From contig JABJCS010000238.1 in NCBI GenBank assembly GCA_018665505.1, positions 1 through 6,083 on the forward strand: a DNA stretch of 6,083 bases, written 5' to 3'. A program made the translations under genes and the position numbers. Under the pieces are notes generated by a model. It worked only from the letters and a program-made list of their open reading frames with translations, had not been told where the DNA came from and ran no database searches. This stretch comes from Alphaproteobacteria bacterium (GTDB taxonomy: Bacteria; Pseudomonadota; Alphaproteobacteria; UBA8366). Below are positions 1,950 through 6,083 of the stretch, in pieces (position 1 is the first letter of the stretch; each line of letters starts with the position of its first letter).

Positions 1950-4259
1950 ATGTTCGGCCAACGAATTAAACGGAAAGAAGACCCGGCACTATTGCGGGGT
2001 GACGGTCGGTTTGCGGACGACATTCAGTTGCCCGGCATGCTGCACGCCCATTTCGTGCGCAGCCCTTTGGCGCACGCACGGATCACCGGGATTGATACGG
2101 CGCAAGCGCTGACTCTGGACGGCGTTGTGGCGATCTACACGCTCGCCGACCTGTTGCCGCATTTAACCGGTGAGCGCGTGCCGGTCGAAATGCCGGCACC
2201 GGCCATCCGTCACCGTATCGACCCTTATGTATTGGCGAAGAACGAAGTGTGCCATGTGGGTGACCCTGTCGCATTGGTAATCGCGGAGAGCAAGCAGGTG
2301 GCCGAAGATGCCGCCGGCATCGTTTGGGTCGATTATGATCCGCTTCCGGCCTGTGTCGATCCACGGGCCGCCTTGGCGACGGGTGCACCACAAGTACGTG
2401 CCGACGTCGCAGACAATTTAGTAGCTGCTTTTGACGTGACATACGGCGACTCTGATGCGGCGTTTGTGATGGCACCACATGTCTTCAAGGAAGAGATCCA
2501 AATCCACAAAGGTGGCGGCCATGCCATGGAGTGCCGGGCGCTTGTTGCCGATTACGATCCGTCGCGCAGGCATCTCACTGTCTGGAATGCTACGCAAATG
2601 CCGCACCGGGCGCAGATGATATTGACCCGATGCCTTGGCATGGCGGAGGCAGATGTCCGAGTGGTACCGCCCGATGTCGGAGGTGGATTCGGGCCGAAGT
2701 TCGTTTTTTATTCGGAAGAAGTCTCCGTACCTTTGGCGTCAAAATTGTTGAAGCGACCGGTAAAGTGGATAGAAGATCGCCGCGAGCATTTCACGGCGAC
2801 AACTCAGGAACGCGACCAGTTTTGGAATGTTGAAGTCGCGGTTGATGAGAAAGGCTGCTTGATCGGTATTCGGGGAGACTTGGTGCACGATCATGGCGCC
2901 TATACGCCCTATGGTTTGGCGCTGGCACAGAATTCAACAAGTAATCTCTTGGGGCCGTACAAGCTGCCGAACTATGACCTCAAGGTACGAATGGCACTGA
3001 CCAACCTAATCCCGGCGACCCCGACGCGGGGGGCCGGTCGACCGCAAGGCACGTTTGTCATGGAACGCCTGCTGGACCGGGTTGCCGGCGAGCTCAAGTT
3101 GGATCGCGCGGAAGTACGGCGGCGCAATTTTATCGCCGCCGATGAGATGCCTTATGCGACACCGGTGGTCACCCGAGACGGCAAGGCGATGACCTATGAC
3201 AGTGGGGATTATCCGGGCGCCCAAGCAATGGTGTTGGAAAAATCCTCCTATGAGGGGTTTGAGGCTCGGCGTGAAGCAGCCCGCACGGAAGGGAAGTATC
3301 TAGGGTTTGGGCTTGCGAATTATGTTGAAGGGACGGGGCGGGGACCATTCGAATCAGCTGTAGTGCGCATTGGCCCCTCTGGCGTGGTGACGGTCGAGAC
3401 TGGTGCGACCTCTCAGGGGCAGGGCGTCGAGACGGCGCTGGCGCAAATCGCGGCGGGGGAAATCGGCGTGGCGCTTTCGGATGTGAAAGTATCGATGGGA
3501 GATACGGCAGTTGTGCCCTACGGGCTCGGCGCCTTTGCGAGCCGTCAAGCGGTTACGGCCGGATCGTCCGTTTCCGTAGCTGCGCAGGAAGTACGTGTGA
3601 AGGTACTAAAGGCCGCGTCGCATATGCTGGAAGCCGCTGTTGGCGATTTGGAGATCGTTGCCGGTGACGTGCGGATAAAGGGATCGGATCGATCAATTCC
3701 GATCGGTAATGTCGCGACGGCGCTTGCGGGTCAGCCGGGTTACGCAATTCCCGGTGGCTTGCCGCCAGGATTAGAGTCACGGATCAATTTCGAAGTCGAT
3801 AGCATTTCCTACTGCAACGGCAGCCATGCCTGCGAAGTTCTGGTCGACCCCGAAACCGGAGCCATGGAGATCGTGCGTTATGTGGTTGTTCATGATTGCG
3901 GTCACATGATCAATCCGACCTTAGTGGAAGGTCAAATAATTGGCGGTGTCGCGCATGGGATCGGCAATGCGCTGATGGAACGCATGGTCTATGACCTCGA
4001 CGGACAGCCGCTCACCGCGAATTATGGAGAATATCTGCTGCCGACGGCGCCGGAAATACCGCGCATCGAGATCTTCCACATGGAATCACCGACACCGCTG
4101 AATCCCCTTGGCGTTAAGGGAACCGGAGAGAGCGGCACTGTTCCAGCGGCGGCGTGCATTATCTCAGCCATCGAAGATGCACTCTCTCCCTTTGGAGTTC
4201 GAGTGGGTGAAACTCCCATGACGCCGATGGCCGTGGTGGAATTGTTCGCCGACCGCTAA
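1950..4259 (+). CDS. Xanthine dehydrogenase-family molybdopterin-binding (large) subunit, CoxL form II-like
   Basis: The 769-residue protein is the molybdenum-cofactor subunit of a xanthine oxidase-family hydroxylase, which hydroxylates a C-H bond with water and passes electrons to FeS and FAD partners. An N-terminal GQRIKRKEDPALLRGDGRF opens the aldehyde oxidase a/b-hammerhead domain (about 15-125). The cofactor domains follow with GGGFGPK (244-250), RPVKW near 271, a TRGAGRP active-site loop (359-365), SQGQG (488-492), HDCGH (648-652) and the catalytic glutamate E727 in KGTGESG. The RGAGR loop is the form II type; form I CO dehydrogenases have a cysteine-containing AYRCSFR loop, so CO is an unlikely substrate. 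Length is normal for the family. The ATG at 1950 has no clear ribosome binding site and lies 8 nt after the previous stop, which suggests translational coupling. No medium (FAD) or small (2Fe-2S) subunit lies next to it. The substrate is unknown; an aromatic or N-heterocyclic acid would fit. Confidence 0.9.
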   Translation: MFGQRIKRKEDPALLRGDGRFADDIQLPGMLHAHFVRSPLAHARITGIDTAQALTLDGVVAIYTLADLLPHLTGERVPVEMPAPAIRHRIDPYVLAKNEVCHVGDPVALVIAESKQVAEDAAGIVWVDYDPLPACVDPRAALATGAPQVRADVADNLVAAFDVTYGDSDAAFVMAPHVFKEEIQIHKGGGHAMECRALVADYDPSRRHLTVWNATQMPHRAQMILTRCLGMAEADVRVVPPDVGGGFGPKFVFYSEEVSVPLASKLLKRPVKWIEDRREHFTATTQERDQFWNVEVAVDEKGCLIGIRGDLVHDHGAYTPYGLALAQNSTSNLLGPYKLPNYDLKVRMALTNLIPATPTRGAGRPQGTFVMERLLDRVAGELKLDRAEVRRRNFIAADEMPYATPVVTRDGKAMTYDSGDYPGAQAMVLEKSSYEGFEARREAARTEGKYLGFGLANYVEGTGRGPFESAVVRIGPSGVVTVETGATSQGQGVETALAQIAAGEIGVALSDVKVSMGDTAVVPYGLGAFASRQAVTAGSSVSVAAQEVRVKVLKAASHMLEAAVGDLEIVAGDVRIKGSDRSIPIGNVATALAGQPGYAIPGGLPPGLESRINFEVDSISYCNGSHACEVLVDPETGAMEIVRYVVVHDCGHMINPTLVEGQIIGGVAHGIGNALMERMVYDLDGQPLTANYGEYLLPTAPEIPRIEIFHMESPTPLNPLGVKGTGESGTVPAAACIISAIEDALSPFGVRVGETPMTPMAVVELFADR

Positions 4260-4332: not shown

Positions 4333-4400
4333 GCCTCAATGACGTGATTTGTGTCCGGCATTATCCTTGATTTCAGGATAGTCATTCTTGAAATGGAGGC
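4333..4400 (+). promoter_or_regulatory. Candidate RNA thermometer / SD-masking structure in the hsp20 5' leader
   Basis: Three complementary pairs nest here. GCCTC (4333-4337) matches GAGGC (4396-4400), which covers most of the hsp20 Shine-Dalgarno sequence. AATGAC (4338-4343) matches GTCATT (4381-4386) exactly. TATCCT (4362-4367) and AGGATA (4375-4380) form an inner 6-bp hairpin with a 7-nt loop. If they fold together, the ribosome binding site is base-paired, with a bulge at 4387-4395. ROSE-type thermometers in the leaders of small heat-shock genes are well known in rhizobia and other alphaproteobacteria, but I do not see the classic ROSE U(U/C)GCU motif. A competing 5-bp hairpin, ATTGA/TCAAT (4325-4340), is also possible. 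Folding energies were not computed. Confidence 0.35.
4395..4399 (+). promoter_or_regulatory. Ribosome binding site GGAGG that sets the hsp20 start
   Basis: GGAGG lies 6 nt before the ATG at 4406. This rules against the in-frame TTG at 4388, which would place the Shine-Dalgarno sequence inside the coding region. Confidence 0.75.
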
Positions 4401-4405
4401 ATGCA

Positions 4406-4837
4406 ATGGTTGAAAAATCCCATACGGCGGCTGGGCATGAAACCGGCTTTTGGCCACATGTGTTGGACCCGCTCCGGAACGCTGGCGAGAAGGTCGCGAA
4501 CTTCTTTGCGCCATCGGCCGACGCATCGTCGATAGATGACGTCTATGAGATCAATGTCGAGTTACCCGGTGTAGCGGGCGAAGATGTCGACGTCGAGCTG
4601 CATGATAATGTGTTGGTCGTAAAAGGAGAAAAACGGTTCGAACGAGAGGAGACCGGGAAAACCTATTATTTCTCGGAGCGGCGTTTCGGCTCGTTTCATC
4701 GATCTTTCCGATTGCCGGAAGATGTAGATGAAGAAGATATTGCTGCGGATTTCGTCGATGGTGTTCTGACGATTAAGATCGCTAAACGGTCGTCCAAAGC
4801 CCCTCAACCTAAGAAAATTGAGGTGAGAAAGAACTAG
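4406..4837 (+). CDS. Small heat-shock protein, Hsp20/alpha-crystallin family
   Basis: This 143-residue protein is an ATP-independent holdase chaperone of the cytoplasm that binds unfolding proteins and hands them to the DnaK and ClpB systems. The N-terminal arm (1-35) is followed by an alpha-crystallin domain at about 36-127. That domain carries the typical beta-strand patterns: YEINVELPGV (47-56), LVVKGEK (70-76), ERRFGSFHRSFRLP (91-104) and the A-x-x-x-x-GVL signature ending in GVLTIKI (119-125). The C-terminal tail has an I-x-I/V-type motif, IEV at 138-140, which family members use to link dimers into oligomers. The length is usual. The ATG at 4406 is chosen for its GGAGG 6 nt upstream. 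It stands apart from its neighbours, with 146 nt before it and 125 nt after it, and is probably its own transcription unit. Its leader may fold over the ribosome binding site. The family call is secure. Confidence 0.95.
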   Translation: MVEKSHTAAGHETGFWPHVLDPLRNAGEKVANFFAPSADASSIDDVYEINVELPGVAGEDVDVELHDNVLVVKGEKRFEREETGKTYYFSERRFGSFHRSFRLPEDVDEEDIAADFVDGVLTIKIAKRSSKAPQPKKIEVRKN

Positions 4838-4859
4838 TTCGAGCAGATACCCAGACTTG

Positions 4860-4892
4860 GGCGGCGTCCGATTGGCGCCGCCTCATTATTGG
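4860..4892 (+). terminator. Probable rho-independent terminator after hsp20
   Basis: GGCGGCG (4860-4866) pairs exactly with CGCCGCC (4876-4882), and the stem extends by T-G and C-G to 9 bp with a 5-nt loop. It lies 22 nt after the hsp20 stop. The following stretch, TCATTATTGG, is only partly T-rich, so the terminator may be weak. Confidence 0.5.
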
Positions 4893-4925
4893 CCTTCCCA
4901 TTGTTTAAGGGTAAGTTTCGTCGTT

Positions 4926-4946
4926 CCCGGAATCATGGCTTCCGGG
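4926..4946. repeat. Perfect 7-bp inverted repeat before the cyclase-like gene
   Basis: CCCGGAA (4926-4932) and TTCCGGG (4940-4946) are exact reverse complements around a 7-nt loop. The right arm ends 2 nt before the GGGGAG ribosome binding site at 4949-4954. It may be a regulatory hairpin or operator for the downstream gene; no T-run follows, so it is not a typical terminator. Confidence 0.4.
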
Positions 4947-4948
4947 TC

Positions 4949-4954
4949 GGGGAG
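4949..4954 (+). promoter_or_regulatory. Ribosome binding site GGGGAG of the CyaC-like gene
   Basis: GGGGAG lies 8 nt before the ATG at 4963. It favours that start over the in-frame ATG at 4981, which has no purine-rich site at a proper distance. Confidence 0.6.
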
Positions 4955-4962
4955 ACGGACGC

Positions 4963-6006
4963 ATGATCAACGGCAATCTGATGCACCAGATTCGGCTTTA
5001 TTCCGGATTGGTGCTTTTCGTATTCGCACTCACTCATTTCATCAATCACGCCTTCGGATTGATCTCGATCGAGGCGACGATGGCGGTGCAGGAGTGGCGT
5101 ACGCTTGTATGGCGGAACCCCGTCGGTGGTGTGGTGTTATATGGCGCCTTGTTGGCGCATATCGCTTTGGCGCTGCTAAAAATTTATCAACGTTACACGC
5201 TGAAAATGCCGCTATGGGAGGCAATTCGTTTGGGGTTGGGTCTCGCCATACCGTTTATCTTACTAGGGCATATCGTTAACACGCGGTTTGCGCATGAAGT
5301 GCTCGGTGTCGACGATAACTATGTCTATGAATTCGTGAAGCTGTGGCCGAATTCCGGATGGAACCAAACGATTCTACTGCTGTTGGTTTGGATTCATTCA
5401 TGTATTGGCTTGCACTACTGGCTGCGGATGAAGGAATGGTACCGCCACACTCAGAACGTTTGGTTCGTGTTGGCCATTCTTATCCCAACCCTCTCATTGT
5501 TGGGGTTTTATGCGGGCGGTCGGTTTATGGAGCAGTTGGAAGCGGATGCTCAATGGCTCGCTACCCTCAAGCTCGATACCAATTGGCCCGACGCGGCGGA
5601 AGCAGCCCTCATAGCCGAAGTTAAATCAATCTCCTTGACGGTATTTATTATTATCGCGGCAATCGCGTTTTGCGGTCGACCGTTACGGACATTCATTCAA
5701 AATCGCTCGGGTATGCTCAACATCACCTATGCGGATGGTCGCACGGTGCGTTCGAGCCCGGGACCGACGCTGCTGGAAATTAGCCGCGCTAATGCTGTAC
5801 CCCATGCCGCTGTTTGTGGCGGCAGAGGCCGCTGCTCGACCTGCCGAGTACGGATTGCTTATGGTATCCGTTTCATGGATGAGCCGGGACCGGCAGAGCA
5901 GGAATTGCTTGAAAAGATCGGGGCGCCTCCCACCGTCCGGCTGGCCTGCCAATGTCGCCCTTGTAGATATGTCGGTACTCGCGGAACATTTTCATTGGCT
6001 TCTTAA
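4963..6006 (+). CDS. Truncated CyaC-type adenylate cyclase: six-helix membrane anchor plus 2Fe-2S ferredoxin domain, catalytic domain missing
   Basis: The 347-residue product matches the sensory half of class III adenylate cyclases of the Sinorhizobium meliloti CyaC type, known to be redox-regulated through a quinone-responsive diheme-B membrane anchor. Six hydrophobic segments lie near residues 12-35, 54-75, 87-110, 136-155, 164-184 and 222-238. Histidines H25, H29, H66, H103, H145 and H151 in or next to them are possible heme ligands. A cytosolic 2Fe-2S ferredoxin domain follows at about 250-333, with C285, C291 and C294 (C-x5-C-x2-C) and C329 in the LACQ motif. In full-length relatives this domain is followed by a linker and the cyclase catalytic domain. 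Here the recognisable sequence ends at RP (332-333), and 14 unrelated residues (334-347) run to the stop. A transposase-like ORF starts 16 nt later, so I infer that an insertion sequence split the gene near 5962. The remaining product cannot make cAMP. The anchor and FeS calls are firm; the truncation cause is inference. Confidence 0.8.
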   Translation: MINGNLMHQIRLYSGLVLFVFALTHFINHAFGLISIEATMAVQEWRTLVWRNPVGGVVLYGALLAHIALALLKIYQRYTLKMPLWEAIRLGLGLAIPFILLGHIVNTRFAHEVLGVDDNYVYEFVKLWPNSGWNQTILLLLVWIHSCIGLHYWLRMKEWYRHTQNVWFVLAILIPTLSLLGFYAGGRFMEQLEADAQWLATLKLDTNWPDAAEAALIAEVKSISLTVFIIIAAIAFCGRPLRTFIQNRSGMLNITYADGRTVRSSPGPTLLEISRANAVPHAAVCGGRGRCSTCRVRIAYGIRFMDEPGPAEQELLEKIGAPPTVRLACQCRPCRYVGTRGTFSLAS

Positions 6007-6083
6007 TTTTGGAAGGGAGAAGATGTTCATGAACAACGAGCAGCGTGAGATTCAACGCAAACTACGCATTCTTCGATATGCCG
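5962..6083 (+). mobile_element. Left end of a probable IS481-like insertion sequence (continues past the window)
   Basis: The cyclase-like similarity stops at 5961, and the next bases, TGTAGATATGTCGG, begin with the TGT common at the ends of many insertion sequences. About 60 nt of leader, more AT-rich than the gene before it, then leads into a transposase-like ORF in the same orientation. The exact boundary may be a few bases either side of 5962. The right end, the matching inverted repeat and any target duplication lie outside the window, so the element's family and completeness cannot be confirmed here. Confidence 0.5.
6023..6083 (+). CDS. Start of a probable IS481-like transposase / helix-turn-helix protein (3' end outside window)
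   Basis: Only about 20 codons are visible: MFMNNEQREIQRKLRILRYA. This resembles, from memory, the N-terminus of IS481-like transposases, where an (E/Q)R-x-I-x-RKL-x-(V/I)L-x-(Y/H)A helix leads into a helix-turn-helix and then a DDE integrase core. The purine-rich GGAAGGGAG at 6011-6019 serves either the ATG at 6023 or the one at 6029. The spacing to 6029 (9 nt) is more usual than to 6023 (3 nt), so the true start may be 6029. It begins 16 nt after the truncated cyclase-like gene. With so little sequence the family call is tentative; another DNA-binding protein cannot be excluded. Confidence 0.5.
   Translation, partial: MFMNNEQREIQRKLRILRYA

Follow-up and report, generated by a model that had tools for sequence, protein, structure and literature searches.

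What has become of the catalytic domain of the redox-sensing adenylate cyclase that this contig appears to encode? The window (the whole 6,083-nucleotide stretch analysed here) closes with an open reading frame on the forward strand, 4963-6006, that encodes 347 residues, ends in a TAA stop codon at 6004-6006 and is the last complete gene in the window. An earlier note had proposed that this gene is a redox-sensing adenylate cyclase cut in two by an insertion sequence (IS): the 2Fe-2S domain would be intact through its fourth cysteine and be followed by 14 residues unlike the family and a stop, where relatives continue into a class III cyclase domain, and the next frame, 16 nt on, would be the N-terminus of a transposase in the same orientation. 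The note also suggested comparison with an uninterrupted orthologue, and it counted intact relatives ending at the same point as evidence against its own proposal.

A Pfam scan of the window protein returned a Fer2 match at residues 259-334 (E 3.2e-8), corresponding to a 2Fe-2S ferredoxin-type domain at 5737-5964 on the forward strand (edges converted from residue numbers), and no match to a class III catalytic domain. We aligned the protein with the best 120 listed of 6022 homologues; all family counts use 117 of these relatives; the remaining three, P0001 (truncated exactly as the window protein is) and two fragments (P0006 and P0007), are left out. Cys285, Cys291, Cys294, and Cys329 are each invariant in 117/117 of these best-listed relatives, which together with the Fer2 match upholds the claim that the 2Fe-2S domain is intact through C329. 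Equally invariant (117/117, again the best listed of 6022) are His25, His66, His103, and His145 of the membrane anchor. Wissig et al. 2019 reportedly described a tetra-histidine heme signature, and the four histidines are the putative heme ligands of the anchor in the window protein. Pro333 is kept in 116 of the 117 relatives, and from residue 334 on the window protein departs from the family.

Judged from its sequence, ORF 4963-6006 is what remains of a CyaC-like redox adenylate cyclase: its sensor half. The surviving 5' part of the gene, residues 1-333, occupies 4963-5961 on the forward strand, comprises the membrane anchor and the 2Fe-2S domain, and is 79% identical to 10001-10999 of locus L001. 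An excerpt of PMC10463352 describes Sinorhizobium meliloti CyaC as a class III cyclase that carries a six-helix diheme-B anchor and a 2Fe-2S cluster and whose activity responds to quinones. Set beside that description, the uninterrupted relatives of the window protein share the order of histidine-bearing membrane anchor, 2Fe-2S domain, and class III cyclase, whereas in the window copy the catalytic domain is gone. By analogy, the ancestor of the window gene would have been CyaC-like, and heme binding and a quinone response may be ascribed to it only by likeness to CyaC. The window copy itself is a disrupted remnant and not a working member of the CyaC-like cyclases.

Past the 2Fe-2S domain, the uninterrupted relatives go on into a Guanylate_cyc domain, as the earlier note had said. 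P0005, the L001 product from a Rhodospirillaceae MAG, has 576 residues, is 79% identical over window residues 1-333, and carries Fer2 at 259-334 and Guanylate_cyc at 366-546 (Pfam). A second uninterrupted relative, P0002, is 85% identical to the window protein. P0006, a record that lacks the N-terminus, is identical to the window protein at 212 of 221 positions over residues 113-333 and then runs on into the cyclase domain, indicating that the uninterrupted form of the gene exists in near relatives. At the DNA level, blastn of the window against L001 yielded two collinear blocks, 5-1958 and 4395-5960, with the stretch between them not common to both, and the gene neighbours of the two loci mostly agree. 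The suggested comparison with an uninterrupted orthologue thus places the end of similarity at base 5960, inside codon 333.

What follows is the left end of an IS. The junction lies at 5961..5962: the orthologous match stops at 5960, and similarity to the IS sets in at 5962, or one base earlier (5961) in copies whose flank ends in T as well; T5961 can be assigned to either side. The sequence from 5962 onward reads TGTAGATATGTCGGTACTCGCGGAACATTTTC. When 5955-6083 was searched by blastn, 38 plasmid records matched (best E 2e-24); each of the 20 rows listed of the 38 begins its match at 5961 or 5962, and 17 of these 20 come from one species, Pseudosulfitobacter pseudonitzschiae. We compared the window with seven other sites, each positioned by its best match to the first 25 IS bases of the window; these were L003-L008, on five plasmid records with L003 and L007 on the same one, and L027, from a genome (L026, a weak and more diverged match, and L028, a weak match judged coincidental, were left out). 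All eight sites (8/8) share the terminus TGTAGATA and agree at 19 of their first 28 IS bases, whereas the sequences flanking them on the left are unrelated. Such a conserved terminus, starting TGT at a fixed base, is a trait of the IS481 family. The window holds the left 122 bp of the element (5962-6083, forward strand), which is cut by the window end. Since the sequence from 5962 is the IS left end, the 14-residue tail is IS DNA: these residues and the stop codon (5962-6006, forward strand), fused to the sensor frame in the translation, are absent from the 117 relatives and common to P0001. A sequencing frameshift was also considered for the changed tail and was rejected, as the DNA past 5961 matches the IS and not the cyclase in another frame.

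After the TAA and a further 16 nt come two candidate start codons, ATG 6023 and ATG 6029, of a transposase ORF (6023-6083, forward strand) that is cut by the window end and reads in the same direction as the cyclase gene. The 18 residues from 6029 are identical to the starts of the IS481-type transposases of L003, L004, L007, and L008 at 15, 14, 15, and 12 of 18 positions, respectively, in line with the earlier identification of this frame. Only the first 18-20 transposase residues are contained in the window, and the family assignment is taken from the full transposase of L008, which passes the NCBIfam IS481 model NF033577 (267 bits, cut-off 224). Two related copies, L007 and L008, are complete: each measures approximately 1000 bp, begins with TGTA, ends with TACA and has imperfect inverted repeats at its termini. 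In L007 the transposase frame is broken by an internal stop. A plasmid search with the L008 element matched 23 records and, L008 itself excluded, five matches begin at its first base, three end at its last base and a fourth ends two bases further. No target duplication was obvious by eye at L007 and L008. According to an excerpt of PMC10045372, IS481 elements duplicate 2-15 bp of their target, in most cases 6 bp, and related eukaryotic elements have TGT...ACA ends. In its transposase, its termini, and its length of about 1 kb, the related full element resembles the IS481 family; the window copy is known here from its left 122 bp alone.

We conclude, with a probability of roughly 0.93, that an IS481-family insertion sequence disrupted a CyaC-like gene at the Pro333 codon. 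Gene disruption by IS elements is common, and this is the ordinary explanation of the locus, as the earlier note had read it. On this reading the element, oriented like the cyclase gene, would have transposed into codon 333 (Pro), where the 2Fe-2S domain gives way to the linker that leads to the catalytic domain. The rest of the IS, approximately 880 bp, would lie beyond the window end, and so would the catalytic half.

Could the protein instead end here legitimately, serving on its own as a heme/2Fe-2S sensor or in electron transfer? The 2Fe-2S sensor module is not tied to a cyclase, since 27/117 aligned relatives carry something else past the 2Fe-2S domain, and P0007 (252 aa, from a 3132-bp contig) ends in PMRP, level with window residue 333. 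However, the 27 have a different and long C-terminal domain, and the tail of the window protein is IS DNA. Intact relatives with the same end, which the earlier note had named as contrary evidence, number 0/117 in the alignment (best listed of 6022 homologues); the only proteins among the 120 aligned that do end there, P0001 and P0007, both stand outside this count, and P0007 is a degenerate fragment with an apparent frame change before its end and loss of the LACQ motif. The one nearby stop among the 117 belongs to P0026, a 384-residue protein named 'partial' that is already into the cyclase motif. We therefore regard a natural short form as extremely improbable.

Assemblies often break inside IS copies, and the window does end inside one, so that the assembler might have fused the 5' half of an uninterrupted cyclase gene with an IS copy that belongs at another site, the element being multicopy; a close uninterrupted allele also exists in the form of P0006. 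Against such a chimera, the junction falls at the exact IS terminus, and the same fusion occurs a second time. P0001 is the same 347-residue fusion protein with one difference, S249P, and ends at the same point; it belongs to a cluster of 6 sequences from 3 contigs of up to 14,901 bp. The junction is present in at least two non-identical sequences, which may or may not come from independent samples. Because public data contain this truncated protein a second time, one residue apart, a one-off assembly chimera is unlikely, and the existence of a cyclase-only ORF starting at an internal Met argues in the same direction; overall, we consider this explanation very unlikely.

That cyclase-only ORF emerged from a search with the catalytic half. 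P0121, a 212-residue ORF on a 1182-bp contig, begins exactly at the internal Met that is residue 365 of P0005, is identical to P0006 at 207 of 212 positions, and retains the Guanylate_cyc domain (Pfam). P0121 may represent the stranded catalytic half of the split gene: a gene caller would start at the internal Met if the upstream frame were closed, as an IS would do, and a frameshift could do likewise. Two further ORFs that begin with this Met, P0122 and P0123, have the look of mutated or frameshifted sequences, and P0121 itself may come from another strain or be the product of a frameshift. Since P0121 keeps its Guanylate_cyc domain, a catalytic half left stranded could still be active, provided that it is expressed. 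The earlier note had suggested that the element could drive or block the downstream cyclase fragment; in 5700-6083, which takes in the left end of the IS, there was no sigma-70-like promoter pattern. One might go further and suppose that the gene has been split into two persisting products, an output-less heme/2Fe-2S membrane sensor and a soluble, sensor-free cyclase starting from Met365 like P0121; redox-controlled cAMP would then have given way to unregulated or IS-driven cAMP in this lineage. We think this improbable.

Among several close relatives on short contigs (P0007, P0122, P0123, P0124, and P0150), conserved residues are altered, an internal deletion is seen, and the frame seems to have shifted. 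Such defects could mean that the gene is decaying in sister lineages, or that the sequences are noisy.

If the IS481-family element did disrupt the gene, as we favour, the 347-residue product may remain able to fold and to bind heme and the 2Fe-2S cluster, and it would make no cAMP. Redox control of cAMP would be lost at the locus, and the catalytic part would be left at most as a separate sensor-free ORF from the internal Met365. Loss of the redox-to-cAMP pathway at this locus is the likely effect of the insertion. The disruption, falling between the sensor and output modules, makes a clean natural knockout, a likely loss of redox-responsive cAMP input by an IS in a relative of an uncultured Rhodospirillaceae MAG. 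In the L001 genome there is also a further full-length paralogue, open frame 584, at 40% identity, and cyclase function may be backed up by a paralogue if the genome of the window carries one as well.

Searches for the IS end outside plasmids gave few matches, and the results for the order and for the family and genome of the orthologue weigh against the favoured reading. The exact 32-base IS-end pattern had 0 matches in viral contigs, and the IS end had no match in phage records and matched 0/11 genomes of the orthologue's family, a search run without a positive control. In 385 genomes of the class there were two weak matches, the diverged L026 and L027, an IS end beside which no transposase start was seen by eye. 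In the order, 1/43 genomes gave a 29-bp match (L028); this candidate, at 1499-1529, was rejected as a coincidence, being a 93% match inside an unrelated open frame that by eye resembles a sigma-54 activator. The related full element had three partial matches in the 385 class genomes, and the genome of the orthologue contains only a distant transposase relative, at 25% identity.

Elsewhere in the window, a gene for a molybdenum-hydroxylase large subunit occupies 1950-4259, between CinA and Hsp20 genes; L001 has no such subunit between the same two genes. Its best NCBIfam match is an aerobic CO dehydrogenase group, with a score below the cut-off of that group, and no small or medium molybdenum-hydroxylase subunit is found among the window proteins scanned.

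The relatives with a different output deserve separate mention. P0023 and 26 others (27 of the 117 relatives) keep the histidine anchor and the 2Fe-2S domain and continue into a different C-terminal part of approximately 150 residues. A Pfam scan of five of these 27 relatives returned no family above cut-off in that part. The C-terminal part of P0023 matched 32 plasmid records by tblastn (best 38%, E 2e-16), and 9 of the 20 rows listed of the 32 carry the annotation 'anti-sigma factor'. An AlphaFold model (mean pLDDT 79) gave weak matches to RseB/MucB, at E 0.0035 and up, over a region that may or may not be this part. This looks like an alternative architecture in which a CyaC-type redox sensor is fitted with an anti-sigma-like output, and we consider this sensor variant a more interesting lead than the IS disruption.
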